Source: a virus
Length of the DNA: 39,125 nucleotides
Strand: one strand, 5' to 3'
Virus record (IMG/VR): IMGVR_UViG_3300025846_000007
Span: 1 to 39,125 of that record
Made by a program: the position numbers and the translations under genes. The notes under the pieces were generated by a model that ran no database searches, was not told the DNA's origin, and saw nothing but the letters and a program-made list of their open reading frames with translations. Shown in pieces: positions 11,308 to 29,191 of the stretch. Position 1 is the stretch's first letter. Each line of letters begins with the position of its first letter.

Positions 11308-12705
11308 ATGAAGCTCAGTCGAAAAGAGTTTGAAGCTCAATTGGCGTTGGCCAAGTCGCTTACCGGCGATGCAAAGAAGACGATGGTCGATAGCCTGAAG
11401 GCTGCCGACGTGTTTGATCTGGTGGAAGGCAAGGAAGTCGCTGTCCATATCGAATTGGATCTGATCGACGGCGACGGGCAGAAGGCCCTGGCCCAGCCCG
11501 GCCTGACCGCCGAGCAGGTGCAGGATATCGTCGCCAAGGCGATGAAGGGCGGGACCAAGGCCCCGGTTATCGGCCAGCCCGATGCCGGCGCGTTTGTTAT
11601 GCCCAAGAACGTGCGCCGGCAGGGCAACCTCAAGGCGTTTGTTGGCGAGATTGACGGCAAAGGCGCCATGGAACGTGCGTATCACTCCGGCCAGTGGATT
11701 CTCGCCGCGTGTGGCAATGAGAAGGCCAAGCAATTCTGTACTGACCACGGCATGGGCCTCAAGCTCCACAGCGAAGGTACGAACACCGCCGGCGGTTATT
11801 TGGTCCCTGAAGAGTTCGGGACCGATATGATCGCGCTGATGGAGAAGTATGGCATCGTCCGCCGTCTCTTCAAGGTCCGGCAGATGATGAGCGACACTCG
11901 CAGCGACCCGCGCCGCACTGGCGGATTGACCGCGTACTTCGTTGGCGAAGGCACGGCCGGCACTGAGTCTAACAAGGGTTGGGACCGCGTGGCCCTTGTC
12001 GCCAAGAAATTGATGGTCCTGACCCGCATTTCGTCCGAGCTTGGCGAAGACGCGGTGATCAACATCGCCGATGACCTGGTTGGCGAAATCGCTCTGGCGT
12101 TCGCAACCCTCGAGGACAATTGCGGTTTGGTTGGAACTGGCACGGCGGCCTATGGCGGGATCGTTGGCGTCTGCCAGAAGTTGACCGACATCAACGGCGT
12201 TGACGAAGGCGGCGGCGTGATCCTGGGCAGCGGTAACACCTTTGCCGAATTGGTCCTGTCTGACTTTAACCGCACCGTGGCCCGCATCCCGCAATATGCG
12301 GACAACGCGAATACCGCGTGGGTTGCCCATCGTTCGTTCTACTATGGCACGATGCAGCGACTTGAGCTTGCGGCCGGCGGCGTTACCGCCAGCGAGATTC
12401 GGCAGGGCAATCGAACCCCGTTGTTCCTCGGCTATCCCGTCGAAATCAGCCCGGTTATGCCCGCGTCCGATGTTAACAGCCAGATCGTCTGTACGTTTGG
12501 CGACCACCAGGCTGCCGCGACGTTTGGCGATCGGCGATCCACTTCGATCAAGTTCTCTGATGCTGCCAATGTTGGCGGCGAAAGCACCTTTGAACGTGAC
12601 GAAATCGCGGTCAAGGGCACGGAGCGTGCGGACATCAACGTGCACGACGTTGGCACCAGCACCGTCGCCGGCCCGGTTGTCGGCCTGATTTCTGCCGCGT
12701 CGTAA
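11308..12705 (+). CDS. Major capsid protein, HK97 fold
   Basis: The 465-residue product carries a charged N-terminal domain (about 1-110) expected to act as the scaffold removed by the protease. The HK97 capsid fold follows. NTAGGYLVPEEF (about 155-166) is the conserved entry, then an E-loop region and the SSELGEDAVINIADDLVGEIA helix. C-ending codons are very frequent, as in highly expressed genes, which also creates a long meaningless antisense frame. It follows a 164-bp gap rich in GCGTA/TACGC words. A hairpin at 12728-12758 closes the unit. Confidence 0.95.
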   Translation: MKLSRKEFEAQLALAKSLTGDAKKTMVDSLKAADVFDLVEGKEVAVHIELDLIDGDGQKALAQPGLTAEQVQDIVAKAMKGGTKAPVIGQPDAGAFVMPKNVRRQGNLKAFVGEIDGKGAMERAYHSGQWILAACGNEKAKQFCTDHGMGLKLHSEGTNTAGGYLVPEEFGTDMIALMEKYGIVRRLFKVRQMMSDTRSDPRRTGGLTAYFVGEGTAGTESNKGWDRVALVAKKLMVLTRISSELGEDAVINIADDLVGEIALAFATLEDNCGLVGTGTAAYGGIVGVCQKLTDINGVDEGGGVILGSGNTFAELVLSDFNRTVARIPQYADNANTAWVAHRSFYYGTMQRLELAAGGVTASEIRQGNRTPLFLGYPVEISPVMPASDVNSQIVCTFGDHQAAATFGDRRSTSIKFSDAANVGGESTFERDEIAVKGTERADINVHDVGTSTVAGPVVGLISAAS

Positions 12706-12786: not shown

Positions 12787-13218
12787 ATGATTCAAGCACA
12801 ACGAAACAAGGACACCCTTGTGATCGCGCCGGTGGCTATGACCAACAGTCAGACCGCGAGCGCCACGTATGACCTGCTCGGGTCCGACTATGCGACGATT
12901 CGCATTCCCCTGAGTTCGGCCATCAACACCAATGCCGTCGGCCCTACGCTCGCCGTGAGTGCCGCCGATACCAGCAACAGCACCGCATTTGTCACGATGG
13001 TTGCCACGCGCACGGCCGAAAGCATCGTTGCGGCGAAGGAAGTTGTTTATCACTTGGATACCAAGACGGCCAAGCGGTACATGAAGCTGAGCATTTCGTC
13101 CGGCACGACCACGAATGACAACGTGACCTGTGCGGCCATTGTCACGGCGAGCCGGCGGGAACAGGAACCCGCCAGCACGACCGATATGGTAGCCGTCGGC
13201 GCTGTCGTGATTGGGTAA
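12787..13218 (+). CDS. Putative capsid decoration or head protein
   Basis: The ATG follows AAAGGCATTCCC after the capsid hairpin. The 143-residue product is rich in Thr, Ser, Ala and Val with strands typical of a small beta-sandwich (for example SATYDLLGSDYATIRIPLSS near residues 24-43) and has no Walker, nuclease or membrane signature. Its codon use is C-rich like the capsid gene. The place directly after capsid is where decoration proteins are usually encoded. This role is inferred from position and expression-like codon bias. Confidence 0.65.
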   Translation: MIQAQRNKDTLVIAPVAMTNSQTASATYDLLGSDYATIRIPLSSAINTNAVGPTLAVSAADTSNSTAFVTMVATRTAESIVAAKEVVYHLDTKTAKRYMKLSISSGTTTNDNVTCAAIVTASRREQEPASTTDMVAVGAVVIG

Positions 13219-13333: not shown

Positions 13334-14017
13334 ATGGCTTACAACAAAATGCAAGATATGAAAGTTGCTGCGATTCTAAGCCGCCCCCGGTTCGGCCTTA
13401 ATGATTTCTGGGATAGCGCCACTGCGGCGTTGCGCCCGTTCGGTATTCCCCTTCGCTCGTTTAAGGGCGTGTTTTGGGGACAGTGTATGCAGCGGGCGTT
13501 CAATGAATGCTGTGAGCAAGGAATCGACTGGATTCTGACCCTCGATTACGACTCGCTGATTACGGCCGAGAATATCAGCACGCTCTTTTGGCGGCTTGGC
13601 GACCGGCCGGATATCGACGCGATAGCGGCCCTGCAATGCAGGCGCGGCCAGCCGTTCCCGTTGTTGACACAGGGCGGCAACACGGCGATTGAACTGGACG
13701 GCCAGCCTATCAAAGTGACTACCTCGCATTTTGGATTGACTGTGTTGCGGGTTGACTCGCTTCGCAAGTGCAAAAAGCCGTGGTTTTTTGGCCAGCCCGA
13801 CAAAGATGGCGAGTGGGGCAATGACCGTCTCGACGATGATATATGGTTCTGGCATCAATGGAGGCTGGCCGGCAACACGATATATGTTGCCCCTGATTGC
13901 AGTATCGGGCACATGGAAGAAATGGTTGCGGAGTTTGGCCCTGACTTCCAGCCCAGGCACGTCTACGTAAGGGACTGGCGCAAGGCGGCCGGCCTTGATT
14001 CAAAGGTGACAGTATGA
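13334..14017 (+). CDS. GT-A-type glycosyltransferase-like protein
   Basis: The ATG at 13334 follows AGGAGA; an upstream frame to 13211 runs through two hairpins and was rejected. The 227-residue product has a GT-A-like layout: an N-terminal Rossmann-like part, then IDWILTLDYDSLIT, in which D71-Y-D73 fits the DXD metal and nucleotide-sugar motif. A conserved TSHFGLTVLR follows, then RLDDDIWFW and a C-terminal GH motif. It is clearly related to the C-terminal half of the protein at 14791-15945. It lies between capsid and connector genes. Virion or host glycan modification is inferred; substrate unknown. Confidence 0.8.
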   Translation: MAYNKMQDMKVAAILSRPRFGLNDFWDSATAALRPFGIPLRSFKGVFWGQCMQRAFNECCEQGIDWILTLDYDSLITAENISTLFWRLGDRPDIDAIAALQCRRGQPFPLLTQGGNTAIELDGQPIKVTTSHFGLTVLRVDSLRKCKKPWFFGQPDKDGEWGNDRLDDDIWFWHQWRLAGNTIYVAPDCSIGHMEEMVAEFGPDFQPRHVYVRDWRKAAGLDSKVTV

Positions 14018-14187
14018 AAATTCAACTCTTGAAACCGTGGGGTATGGCGACAGTTGGGCAGATACTGCCAAACGTCGGCGCGGGCGTAGCGGAGCAACTT
14101 ATCAAGCGGGGCGTGGCTAAGTGCGTTGATGCGGCCGCGATCCGAACCAAGCCCTATGTCGGGAATCTCCGTAACAAGGCTAGGTAG
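14014..14187 (+). CDS. Small unknown head-module protein
   Basis: The ATG overlaps the glycosyltransferase stop (ATGA), and the frame gives 57 residues, MKIQLLKPWGMATVGQILPN to a basic C-terminus (LRNKAR). The opening, with K-x-Q-L-L-K-P and a G-x2-hydrophobic turn, resembles small phage proteins that start with a hydrophobic strand and a GxxL/V loop followed by a helix of the EQLIKRGVA type. These are commonly found beside connector genes. No function is assigned. Confidence 0.65.
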   Translation: MKIQLLKPWGMATVGQILPNVGAGVAEQLIKRGVAKCVDAAAIRTKPYVGNLRNKAR

Positions 14188-14191
14188 AACT

Positions 14192-14764
14192 ATGCCAATT
14201 ATCATCGTAACCCCGCCGACGTTTGAACCTGTCAGCCTGTCAGAGGCGAAGCTTAACCTGCGCGTTGACGGCACTGATGAAGACTCGCTTATTCAGCGGC
14301 TTATCTCTACCGCGCGAAGGTATTGTGAACGTGAAGGCCGCATGACTATCCCGGCGACAACGCTCCGGTTGACTATGGATGTAATGCCGTGTGGATTTAA
14401 GGTTCTTCGCATTCCCAATCCGCCACTAATCAGCGTTACCAGCATCGTTTACATTGACACGGCGGGCGTATCGCAAACGATGTCAGCGAGCCTCTATAAG
14501 GTTGCACCCGGCGGCGCAGAGGAGGGTAGGATTGCCCCGGCGTTTGGACTGGTCTGGCCCGTCAACCGGATGGAAATCGGGGCCGTCCAAATTACTTACG
14601 TTGCGGGATACTCCACGGCGGCAGAGATACCCGTAACAACGGCACAGGCGATGCACCTGCTGATTGGGCAGTGGTATGCGAAGCGAGAGCCGGAAGGATC
14701 GGCCAGCGACGATATCGCGTCGGCGGTTGGCTCGCTGTTATGGTGTGAGCGCGTAAAGATTTAG
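14192..14764 (+). CDS. Head-tail connector, gp6/HK97-type adaptor
   Basis: From the ATG at 14192 the product has 190 residues. It begins TPPTFEPVSLSEAKLNLRVDGTDEDSLIQRLISTARRYCE, the hallmark of phage gp6-like DNA-packaging adaptor proteins (PVTLEEAKxHLRV..DDxLI). A helical core and a beta insertion follow, ending in QAMHLLIGQWYAKRE, also typical. It would form the ring bound to the portal. It lies between the two glycosyltransferase-like genes, so these are embedded in the structural operon. Confidence 0.88.
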   Translation: MPIIIVTPPTFEPVSLSEAKLNLRVDGTDEDSLIQRLISTARRYCEREGRMTIPATTLRLTMDVMPCGFKVLRIPNPPLISVTSIVYIDTAGVSQTMSASLYKVAPGGAEEGRIAPAFGLVWPVNRMEIGAVQITYVAGYSTAAEIPVTTAQAMHLLIGQWYAKREPEGSASDDIASAVGSLLWCERVKI

Positions 14765-14790
14765 GCGGGTGGGAACCCGTAGGAGTACAG

Positions 14791-15945
14791 ATGCTAAAGC
14801 TGAATATTGGAGCGGGCGCAATCCCGCTTGAGGGATACCAGAATATCGACCACAAGAGCGGCAATGAAGCTTTCCCGTTGTCTAACATCGTGGATGATTC
14901 TGTTGACGAGGTCCGGGCATCGCACATTTTGGAACACTTCGGACACCGGCAGACGATGGCCGTGTTGACGGAATGGGCAAGAGTATTGAAGCCGGGCGGG
15001 ATATTGAAGATTGCCGTACCAGACTTTGCCCAGATTGCAGACGGCTACTGCAAGGGAAGCGGTATTCAGGTGCAGGGCTATACGATGGGCGGCCAGGTAG
15101 ACGCCGATGACTTTCATCGCTGCCTGTTTGACCGCGACACGTTGTACAACGCACTGGATGCGGCGGGACTTATTGATATTGAGGTGTGGATAAGCGACGT
15201 TGAAGATTGTGCCTCGCTGCCAATCTCGCTCAACCTGCAAGGTATGAAGCCCCGTGCGTTTGAAGGCCGGGTGCAGGCGGTGATGAGTGTCCCCCGGCTG
15301 GGTTTTATGGACAATTTCTTCTGTTGGGCTGAGTCATTGGCCCCCCTTGGAATCAAGCCGATTATGGCCCAGGGCGCGTATTGGGGGCAGTGCCTTGAGC
15401 GGATCATGGAACAGGCCGCGCCGGAGTGTGATTGGTTGCTCGCCGTTGACTACGACAGCTTTTTTACGCTCGACAATATCAAGCACCTTTTGTTGATTGC
15501 CGCGAATCACCCGGAATGCGATGCGATCGCGCCGCTCCAAATGAAGCGCGGGACCGATACCGTCCCACTTATGACGCGGCTCAACCCCGATGGCTCGCTG
15601 ATGATGACGGGGAGCTTCGATGACTTCCGCAAGCCATTGATGCAAGTCAATACCTCGCATTTTGGGTGTACGTTGATCCGCAAATCGGCCCTCCTAAAGA
15701 TGGCGCACCCATGGTTCAAGGGCGAGCCAAACGCGGACGGGACCTGGGGCGAAGGCCGCGTTGACGATGACATTTACTTTTGGCGGAAGTGGAAAGAGGC
15801 TGGAAATACAGTCTATTCCGCGAATCAGGTAGTAATTGGCCACGGCGAATATACGATCCTTTGGCCAAACAAGAATCTGCGGCCGTGCCACCAGTTGCCA
15901 AACGACTGGCGCAAGAATGGCCCGACCCCTCAAGCATGGAAGTGA
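14791..15945 (+). CDS. Fusion of SAM methyltransferase-like and glycosyltransferase-like domains
   Basis: The ATG follows AGGAG. Residues 1-155 resemble class I SAM-dependent methyltransferases of the COG4627 type: LNIGAGAIPLEGYQNID (motif I), ASHILEHF, VLKPGGILKIAVPD. Residues 162-384 are a GT-A-like domain paralogous to 13334-14017. It has DWLLAVDYDSFFT with D220-Y-D222, NTSHFGCTLIR, RVDDDIYFWRKW and a GH near the end. The fusion suggests one enzyme that adds a sugar and methylates it or a related acceptor. It sits between connector and neck genes. Both domains look intact; substrate unknown. Confidence 0.82.
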   Translation: MLKLNIGAGAIPLEGYQNIDHKSGNEAFPLSNIVDDSVDEVRASHILEHFGHRQTMAVLTEWARVLKPGGILKIAVPDFAQIADGYCKGSGIQVQGYTMGGQVDADDFHRCLFDRDTLYNALDAAGLIDIEVWISDVEDCASLPISLNLQGMKPRAFEGRVQAVMSVPRLGFMDNFFCWAESLAPLGIKPIMAQGAYWGQCLERIMEQAAPECDWLLAVDYDSFFTLDNIKHLLLIAANHPECDAIAPLQMKRGTDTVPLMTRLNPDGSLMMTGSFDDFRKPLMQVNTSHFGCTLIRKSALLKMAHPWFKGEPNADGTWGEGRVDDDIYFWRKWKEAGNTVYSANQVVIGHGEYTILWPNKNLRPCHQLPNDWRKNGPTPQAWK

Positions 15946-15951
15946 ACAATT

Positions 15952-16332
15952 ATGGCAGTCGAAATCACAGTCAGCACGAAAGTCACTTGGGCAAAAGGCG
16001 AGTATTCCAATAGCCGATCAAAGCAATTCACTGCGGATTGGGCGGGCGATCATGTTTCTGATTTCGTGCAGGACATTGGCACGGCGACCCATGAGCTTAT
16101 CGTGATTCCCGCCGAAATCGCGACGGCCGGAATCTCTGTGTTTCATAGTATGAGCACCTCGACAAGTACCAGCGTGTCTGTGCAAATCGGCGTGGATAAC
16201 GCGGGTACTTTTGTTCCGTTCCAATCGTTCAAGTCCGGCGAAGTGTTCCCCTTGCGGTTGGCGACAACGGCGGTCTATGCGAAGGCGGAAACGTCAACGG
16301 TCAAGCTCCGATGCACGCTTGGAGAGGTGTAA
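15952..16332 (+). CDS. Putative small structural protein
   Basis: The 126-residue product is beta-rich with Ser/Thr repeats (STSTSTSVSVQIGVDN), no membrane segment and no recognised enzyme motif. It begins six bases after the fusion gene and precedes the head-closure gene. Its sequence style resembles the putative decoration protein at 12787 and the surface protein at 3964, but I cannot show homology. A virion surface or neck protein, possibly the substrate of the modifying enzymes, is a guess. Confidence 0.65.
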   Translation: MAVEITVSTKVTWAKGEYSNSRSKQFTADWAGDHVSDFVQDIGTATHELIVIPAEIATAGISVFHSMSTSTSTSVSVQIGVDNAGTFVPFQSFKSGEVFPLRLATTAVYAKAETSTVKLRCTLGEV

Positions 16333-16334
16333 CC

Positions 16335-16655
16335 ATGAAGGCCGGAATCCTTACGCATAAGGTGAATTTACAGCGGGCAACCGAAACGAAGGACGGCTAC
16401 GGGGCGACTTCGCCGACGTGGGCGACCTATGCCACGCCGTGGGCGGAAATCAAGTCGCCTTCCGCCAGCCAGATAGACCGGAGTAAGAGCTTCTCCGACA
16501 CCGTTACCGCTGTAATCCGCCTGCGGTTCCGTACCGATATTCTCAACTCTGACCAGATTGTAGATCGTACGCATACCTATCGCATTGAAGGTATTGCCGA
16601 TCCGGACGGCCTGCGAACGGAGCTTCTAATTTATGCCACAGAGCGAATCAATTGA
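16335..16655 (+). CDS. Head closure protein (SPP1 gp16-like head-tail joining family)
   Basis: The 106-residue product has the typical beginning KAGILTHKVNLQRATETKDGYGATSPTWATYATPWAEI, conserved in head-tail joining proteins (ritzy RHRVTIQ...D.xG...W). The ending, THTYRIEGIADPDGLRTELLIYATE, is typical too. It seals the portal-adaptor channel. It overlaps the next gene by 23 bases. Confidence 0.88.
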   Translation: MKAGILTHKVNLQRATETKDGYGATSPTWATYATPWAEIKSPSASQIDRSKSFSDTVTAVIRLRFRTDILNSDQIVDRTHTYRIEGIADPDGLRTELLIYATERIN

Positions 16656-28426: not shown

Positions 28427-29191
28427 TTAAAACAACTTCGCCGCCTCCGATGTGAATGTTAGATATCCGGGAAATTCGCAAAGCGTCCGCTGGATGCGCC
28501 GTTTTGCAAGCTCAAAATAGTCTGGGTCTCGTTCTATCCCCAGAAAACGGCGGCCAAGTGCTATTGCTGCTACGCCCGTGGAAGCCGACCCCATGCAGGG
28601 ATCGCAAACCAATTGTCCGGCGCGGCTATAGTCTCTGACAATCGCCGCCATCAGCTCCACGGGCTTGCCGCCCATATGATACTTCTTCCCGCGTTCTGTA
28701 TACCCGCCGGGAAGCGTCCCCCACCGAAGTTGCTTTGCAGTGCGGCTAACAACAATCCAATCAGTCCACGACGACGGTCCATCGCCGGAAAGCCGGACGC
28801 TGCGGCCGGGAACGTACCACGGGAGCGGCACAAACGTACACCGCCCGGCGCGTTCCATTTCGTTCCTCCACGCCGGCGCGAGCGTGGAGTCTGTCATGCA
28901 AACAAGCCACCCTGAGCAAGCACGCGCGGCTACGGCGACAAACTCAGCAACGGCTCCCTCGCTCCACGCTGCATAACCTAATTGTTTTCGATCCGCTCCG
29001 TCGCTTCCTTCTCCCGATTGGCCGTCCACTACCGAATTATGTCCGGCGTGGGTTCTGGCGGAATATGGCGGGTCTGTCGCGATGCAGTCTATCGAGCCGG
29101 GGGCAATGTCGCCCAACACATCCAGACAATTCGCGCACAAAAGCCTGACCCGCCCGTCTTCTGAGGTCCATTCCGATTTAATTACGCTCAT
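28427..29191 (-). CDS. DNA methyltransferase, N6-adenine or N4-cytosine, beta-type
   Basis: The 254-residue product has the catalytic motif IV, DCIATDPPYSARTH (DPPY at about residues 39-42), near the N-terminus. The SAM-binding motif I, VCDPCMGSASTGVAA (about 203-217), lies near the C-terminus, the order of beta-class amino-methyltransferases. The usual DPFMGSGTT is altered to DPCMGSAST. No restriction nuclease gene is beside it, so it is an orphan enzyme likely used to hide phage DNA from host restriction. Target sequence unknown. Confidence 0.92.
   Translation of the reverse strand: MSVIKSEWTSEDGRVRLLCANCLDVLGDIAPGSIDCIATDPPYSARTHAGHNSVVDGQSGEGSDGADRKQLGYAAWSEGAVAEFVAVAARACSGWLVCMTDSTLAPAWRNEMERAGRCTFVPLPWYVPGRSVRLSGDGPSSWTDWIVVSRTAKQLRWGTLPGGYTERGKKYHMGGKPVELMAAIVRDYSRAGQLVCDPCMGSASTGVAAIALGRRFLGIERDPDYFELAKRRIQRTLCEFPGYLTFTSEAAKLF

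Follow-up and report, generated by a model that had tools for sequence, protein, structure and literature searches.

To our knowledge, glycosylation of virions has so far been documented only in a few phages, some mycobacteriophages among them, and in archaeal viruses. Among the former, Che8, Corndog and Myrna glycosylate their capsid and tail tube proteins with glycosyltransferases (GTs) of their own, according to Freeman et al. 2023 as cited in PMC12363180. In the archaeal virus STIV the coat protein is glycosylated, and A197 is thought to be responsible; A197 is essential, and its D151E mutation delays replication (PMC10551542).

The window studied here, meaning the whole 39,125-base stretch of DNA that was analysed, is an IMG/VR virus record that protein-family profile searches assign to a tailed phage. 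Its plus strand carries genes for the small and large terminase (TerL), portal, a probable protease, an HK97-fold capsid, connector, head completion and neck, and its minus strand holds the replication module, in which a DNA methyltransferase lies at 28427–29191 (minus strand, phrog_67). Two GT genes, GT1 and GT2, flank the connector and are co-oriented with the head genes, as the initial annotation had it: the gene between them matches PF05135 and phrog_442, and TerL, portal, major capsid protein and head completion are all encoded on the plus strand. The features of this region are as follows.

11308–12705, plus strand: major capsid protein (MCP), HK97 fold (PF05065, 3e-36; phrog_10)
12787–13218, plus strand: predicted capsid decoration/cement protein, jelly roll of the Bbp16/Carin1 gp42 type (profile and Foldseek matches)
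13334–14017, plus strand: GT1, predicted stand-alone GT-A glycosyltransferase, 227 aa, ancestral N-terminal methyltransferase (MT) deleted
14126–14764, plus strand: head-tail connector (gp6-like), between GT1 and GT2 (PF05135, 7.9e-10; phrog_442, 1.8e-23; also phrog_40); longest open frame, the real start possibly lying further in
14791–15945, plus strand: GT2, whole gene, 384 aa, predicted MT-GT fusion
14791–15258, plus strand: GT2 N-terminal domain, predicted class I SAM methyltransferase, motif LNIGAG
15262–15945, plus strand: GT2 C-terminal domain, predicted GT-A glycosyltransferase (AlphaFold2 model; match to STIV A197, 2c0n)
15952–16332, plus strand: small Ser/Thr-rich protein directly 3' of GT2, without a Pfam or PHROG match
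16311–16655, plus strand: head completion protein (PF05521, 2.8e-20)

In addition, a short reading frame at 14014–14200, whose ATG overlaps the GT1 stop codon (14014), precedes the connector gene and is possibly a small coupled gene.

The locus resembles the described systems in part. Like the window GTs, A197 is encoded beside virion structural genes; unlike GT2, it is without an MT domain, and it comes from an archaeal, membrane-containing icosahedral virus. In Che8, gp108 (L243:4172-5347) fuses a GT2-type glycosyltransferase to a TylF-type MT, a second and independent instance of a GT–MT pair, whereas the Che8 GTs lie near the genome end and not beside the capsid gene. In a comparison that covered the GTs of Che8 (gp108–110), these were rejected as homologues (hhalign E 0.18–0.79). 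The family appears to work in the manner of virion glycosylation; we do not assign it to one of the known virion GT families.

Sequence and predicted fold of the two glycosyltransferases

Both reading frames are open, at 13334–14017 and 14791–15945, and the description of their products as two related GT-A-like glycosyltransferases with DYD, TSHFG and DDDI-FW motifs holds. GT1 and GT2 align over 217 residues with 39% identity (E 2e-51; 41% and E 4.6e-50 in a second comparison), a likeness that is not due to chance, since E is about 1e-50 over this length. The motifs are intact in both, reading LTLDYDSL, TTSHFGLT and DRLDDDIWFWHQW in GT1, and LAVDYDSF, NTSHFGCT and DDDIYFWRKW in GT2. Across 72 non-redundant family members, filtered at 80% identity, 16 positions are 100% invariant (GT1 numbering: R19, D71, D73, R104, H132, F133, G134, T136, P149, W150, D167, D169, F172, W173, G192 and H193), and these include the DXD pair, the HFG motif, both outer Asp residues of DDDI and a late His. 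All 72 members therefore have the DXD metal/donor site and the catalytic acids (D71, D73, D167, D169, H193), and the invariant set would suit an active GT-A enzyme, one that probably depends on a metal.

Structure prediction, suggested in the initial annotation as a check, was run on GT2 and yielded the GT-A and SAM MT folds in an AlphaFold2 model built from 34 family members, with a mean pLDDT of 91. The second half of the model matches GT-A enzymes, the best being STIV A197 (PDB 2c0n; Z 18.8, rmsd 2.5, 177/191 residues), and the GT-A domain matches SpsA (1h7l) at Z 12.9. Beyond the shared GT-A core, the catalytic Asp is in register, with A197 D151 placed on the invariant last D of DDDI; this alignment scores 10.8 bits, against 4.4 for the best of 2000 shuffles. 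Similarity to A197 at the sequence level is marginal (hhalign E 0.0024, probability 12%, and no match in the PDB profile search), and the GT sequence profile returned only chance reverse-transcriptase matches from the PDB. A structural match to LH3 was set aside as functional evidence; it covers LH3 residues 294–539, which we take to be the accessory GT-like domain of that protein. PHROG 1574, whose function is unassigned, matches both GT domains weakly (4e-5 and 6e-5) and with partial domain coverage. By their motifs and modelled fold, the GT domains are GT-A fold glycosyltransferases with intact catalytic motifs and a predicted activity.

Methyltransferase fusions in the family

The N-terminal part of GT2 matches Methyltransf_11 (5.3e-5, above the curated cut-off) and the methyltransferase family phrog_6636; residues N5, G7, G9 and D20 of the domain are invariant, pLDDT exceeds 90 in most blocks of its model, and SAM methyltransferases match it at Z 13–14. 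With a SAM-binding motif and a modelled Rossmann fold, the domain is a class I SAM methyltransferase of predicted activity. The MT domain noted initially is thus real, but the view that it had been added to GT2 has to be reversed, because in L001, the closest relative of the window, both GT copies are MT-GT fusions. The relatives of GT1 found alongside L001 are also mostly MT-GT fusions. Alignment of the window with L001 runs to 13305 and resumes at 13361, the roughly 575 missing bases corresponding to the MT, and the Shine–Dalgarno-like GGAGACAG before the ATG at 13334 corresponds to the ribosome-binding sequence of the fused L001 gene. The L001 fusions, the gap of about 575 bases and the retention of GGAGACAG from the fused gene together indicate that GT1 lost its MT cleanly, and fusion is the ancestral state of the pair, with the MT missing from GT1 and not added to GT2. 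GT-only genes are also common in more distant clades, and the fusion-first state is stated for the GT1/GT2 pair only. Although it is without an MT, GT1 is under strong constraint, given that it retains 81% identity to its L001 relative at saturated synonymous change, as against 62% for MCP and cement protein.

In the family tree, GT1 groups within a clade of 35 rows, whereas GT2 belongs to another of 10 rows. The two copies thus come from two old clades and did not arise by a recent duplication. Looking for the pair in other phages, as had been proposed, showed the family to be common in IMG/VR, but two GT copies occur only in the window and L001 among the loci examined for copy number.

Elsewhere in the family, the GT has MT partners from three or more families. 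The commonest arrangement is a Methyltransf_11-type MT on the N-terminal side of the GT, and in L085 and L086 an MT of this type sits at the GT C-terminus. The GT is fused to a Methyltransf_9/DUF1698-like MT of about 290 aa in L083:4221-5792 and L330:5161-6684, and triple fusions of FkbM, a Methyltransf_11-type MT and the GT occupy the same place in the head operon in L003:3888-5663 and L241:5012-6997. A stand-alone MT lies about 1 kb upstream of the MCP gene, with a GT without fused MT, in L255 (1067-1666) and also in L256, L257, L249 and L258, and some family loci have the GT without any MT. That MTs of several kinds have become attached to one GT time and again suggests that the sugar, or the product once glycosylated, is what is methylated.

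The cement protein, gene order and distribution

The gene at 12787–13218 stands directly after the MCP gene, the place that its counterpart occupies in Carin1, and it is of the same jelly-roll cement type as Carin1 gp42, BPP-1 Bbp16 and the epsilon15 protein. Its profile matches the Carin1 'Capsid Decoration Protein' (8cjz_B) with E 4e-4, the hhalign comparison with the Carin1 cement protein gave E 1.2e-4, and its model is a beta-sandwich (pLDDT 79) for which Foldseek ranks Carin1 and BPP-1 second and third. The Carin1 cement protein belongs to Pfam PF21190 (Bbp16) and is likewise encoded directly after the MCP; the window protein itself fell below PF21190 in the Pfam search. From these profile and model matches, 12787–13218 is taken to encode a Bbp16/Carin1-type jelly-roll cement protein. 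Unlike the window, Carin1 and epsilon15-type phages yielded no relative of this GT, and Carin1 gp39, which is also 384 aa long, was rejected as a relative.

The order MCP, GT, connector was found in 135/135 loci having all three genes, a count that includes some overlapping pieces of one contig. Searches seeded with the cement protein found the GT downstream in 72/72 and 65/65 loci with enough sequence (137 in total). These seeds all came from GT-positive loci and are therefore biased, so the search was repeated with capsid proteins. The MCP-seeded loci comprised 25 with cement and GT, 19 with cement only, three with neither and none with the GT but no cement, and the 19 cement-only loci refute the notion that cement never occurs without the GT. 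The cement proteins lacking a GT number 20 sequences in four clusters at 75%, and no GT was found elsewhere in the GT-lacking records, most of which are fragments. Three loci, L081, L082 and L084, gave no sign of a cement gene next to the GT, which may reflect divergence or fragmentation. In the MCP-seeded sample, a GT that accompanies cement, together with a cement protein that can lack the GT, is what one would predict were the acceptor the cement protein or the shell to which it binds; the cement-only loci further indicate that the modification is dispensable in some lineages. Within a conserved module, shared descent can also cause such an association. Among the cement proteins encoded in GT-positive loci (63 sequences), no position is richer in Ser/Thr than 63 and 66, both at 94%; the two sit in a predicted loop between strands, a hint that they may form a glycosylation site.

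GT1 relatives were absent from 50,697 phage records and 72,556 plasmid records, and among GenBank phages and plasmids GT2 gave MT-only matches. A bacterial genome scan with GT1 alone returned nothing; with the MT-GT profile it gave for the most part cellular matches to the MT only, and in addition four phage-like contigs from bacterial MAGs (L090–L093). In IMG/VR, one query retrieved 136 GT1 relatives, and the family there comprises 72 clusters at 80% identity. A search of open-access full texts found no description of the GT family, which belongs to a large and apparently uncultured phage group.

Proposed function and alternative acceptors

Homology, motifs, predicted fold, gene order, cement association, the loss of the MT from GT1 and strong constraint are all read from sequence, and from them we infer an enzymatic activity, its donor, acceptor and linkage, the order of its steps and a benefit to the phage. 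We think it probable that the family glycosylates, and usually methylates, a protein of the capsid surface, probably the cement protein. GT1 and GT2 would be made together with the head proteins and would take a sugar from a nucleotide sugar of the host and attach it to Ser/Thr residues on the surface of the virion; the likeliest acceptor is the cement protein (12787–13218), whose gene immediately precedes GT1, and failing that the MCP. The MT domain of GT2 would then O-methylate that sugar, giving a capsid with a methylated glycan coat. No nucleotide-sugar pyrophosphorylase family was found in the window, consistent with a donor supplied by the host.

The initial annotation had offered modification of a capsid, neck or fibre protein, or a late change of host surface glycans; folds, placement and the match to A197 best support glycosylation and methylation of a capsid protein. 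The main remaining alternative is a different virion acceptor (MCP, neck, tail tube or fibre), with the cement link arising from shared descent of the head module. We rate this as a lesser possibility, itself a sub-case of virion glycosylation whose weight overlaps that of the preferred reading. Cement does occur without the GT, and the glycosylated mycobacteriophage proteins, as given in PMC12363180, are capsid and tail tube subunits; yet the GT lies nearest the cement gene and was never found without it in the MCP-seeded set, and two positions of a cement loop are 94% Ser/Thr across 63 sequences. Neck or fibre acceptors in particular are weakened by the GT tracking the cement protein.

Late alteration of host surface glycans (LPS or capsule), by which adsorption would change or superinfection or progeny re-adsorption would be blocked, appears unlikely. 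Bacterial genomes contain many MT homologues of this type, and surface polysaccharides are common substrates of GT2-like GT-A enzymes and of class I MTs, but the GT behaves as a fixed head-operon gene and not as a moveable extra: it keeps its position between capsid/cement and connector in 135/135 loci, did not turn up as a mobile gene among GenBank phages or plasmids, and never occurs without cement in the MCP-seeded set. Very improbable is modification of phage DNA bases against restriction, in the manner of glucosylated hydroxymethylcytosine. Phages do glycosylate DNA, and the window has a separate DNA methyltransferase (28427–29191); against this, the 39 kb record contains no thymidylate synthase/hydroxymethylase family (a control search was positive in 9/14 genomes), the GT and MT are placed in the head operon, and the closest fold belongs to a viral enzyme believed to modify a coat protein.

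If glycosylation of the cement protein is correct, capsid glycosylation would be a widespread trait across many environmental phages, a defined enzyme–acceptor pair would be available along with a marker for finding such phages, and PHROG 1574 would gain a likely function. We give even chances to a broader reading, namely a head-operon capsid-glycosylation module in which one GT family, tied to cement, has repeatedly been joined to different sugar-MT families, making methylated glycans standard on these capsids.

The Ser/Thr-rich protein at 15952–16332 is a possible second acceptor; the first 87 related loci contained no homologue of it, and the idea of a second cement protein found no support, as the protein is unrelated to the cement profile. 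A related phage clade (L360, L363 and L364–L395) has the same MCP and cement genes without the GT and provides a natural control group.
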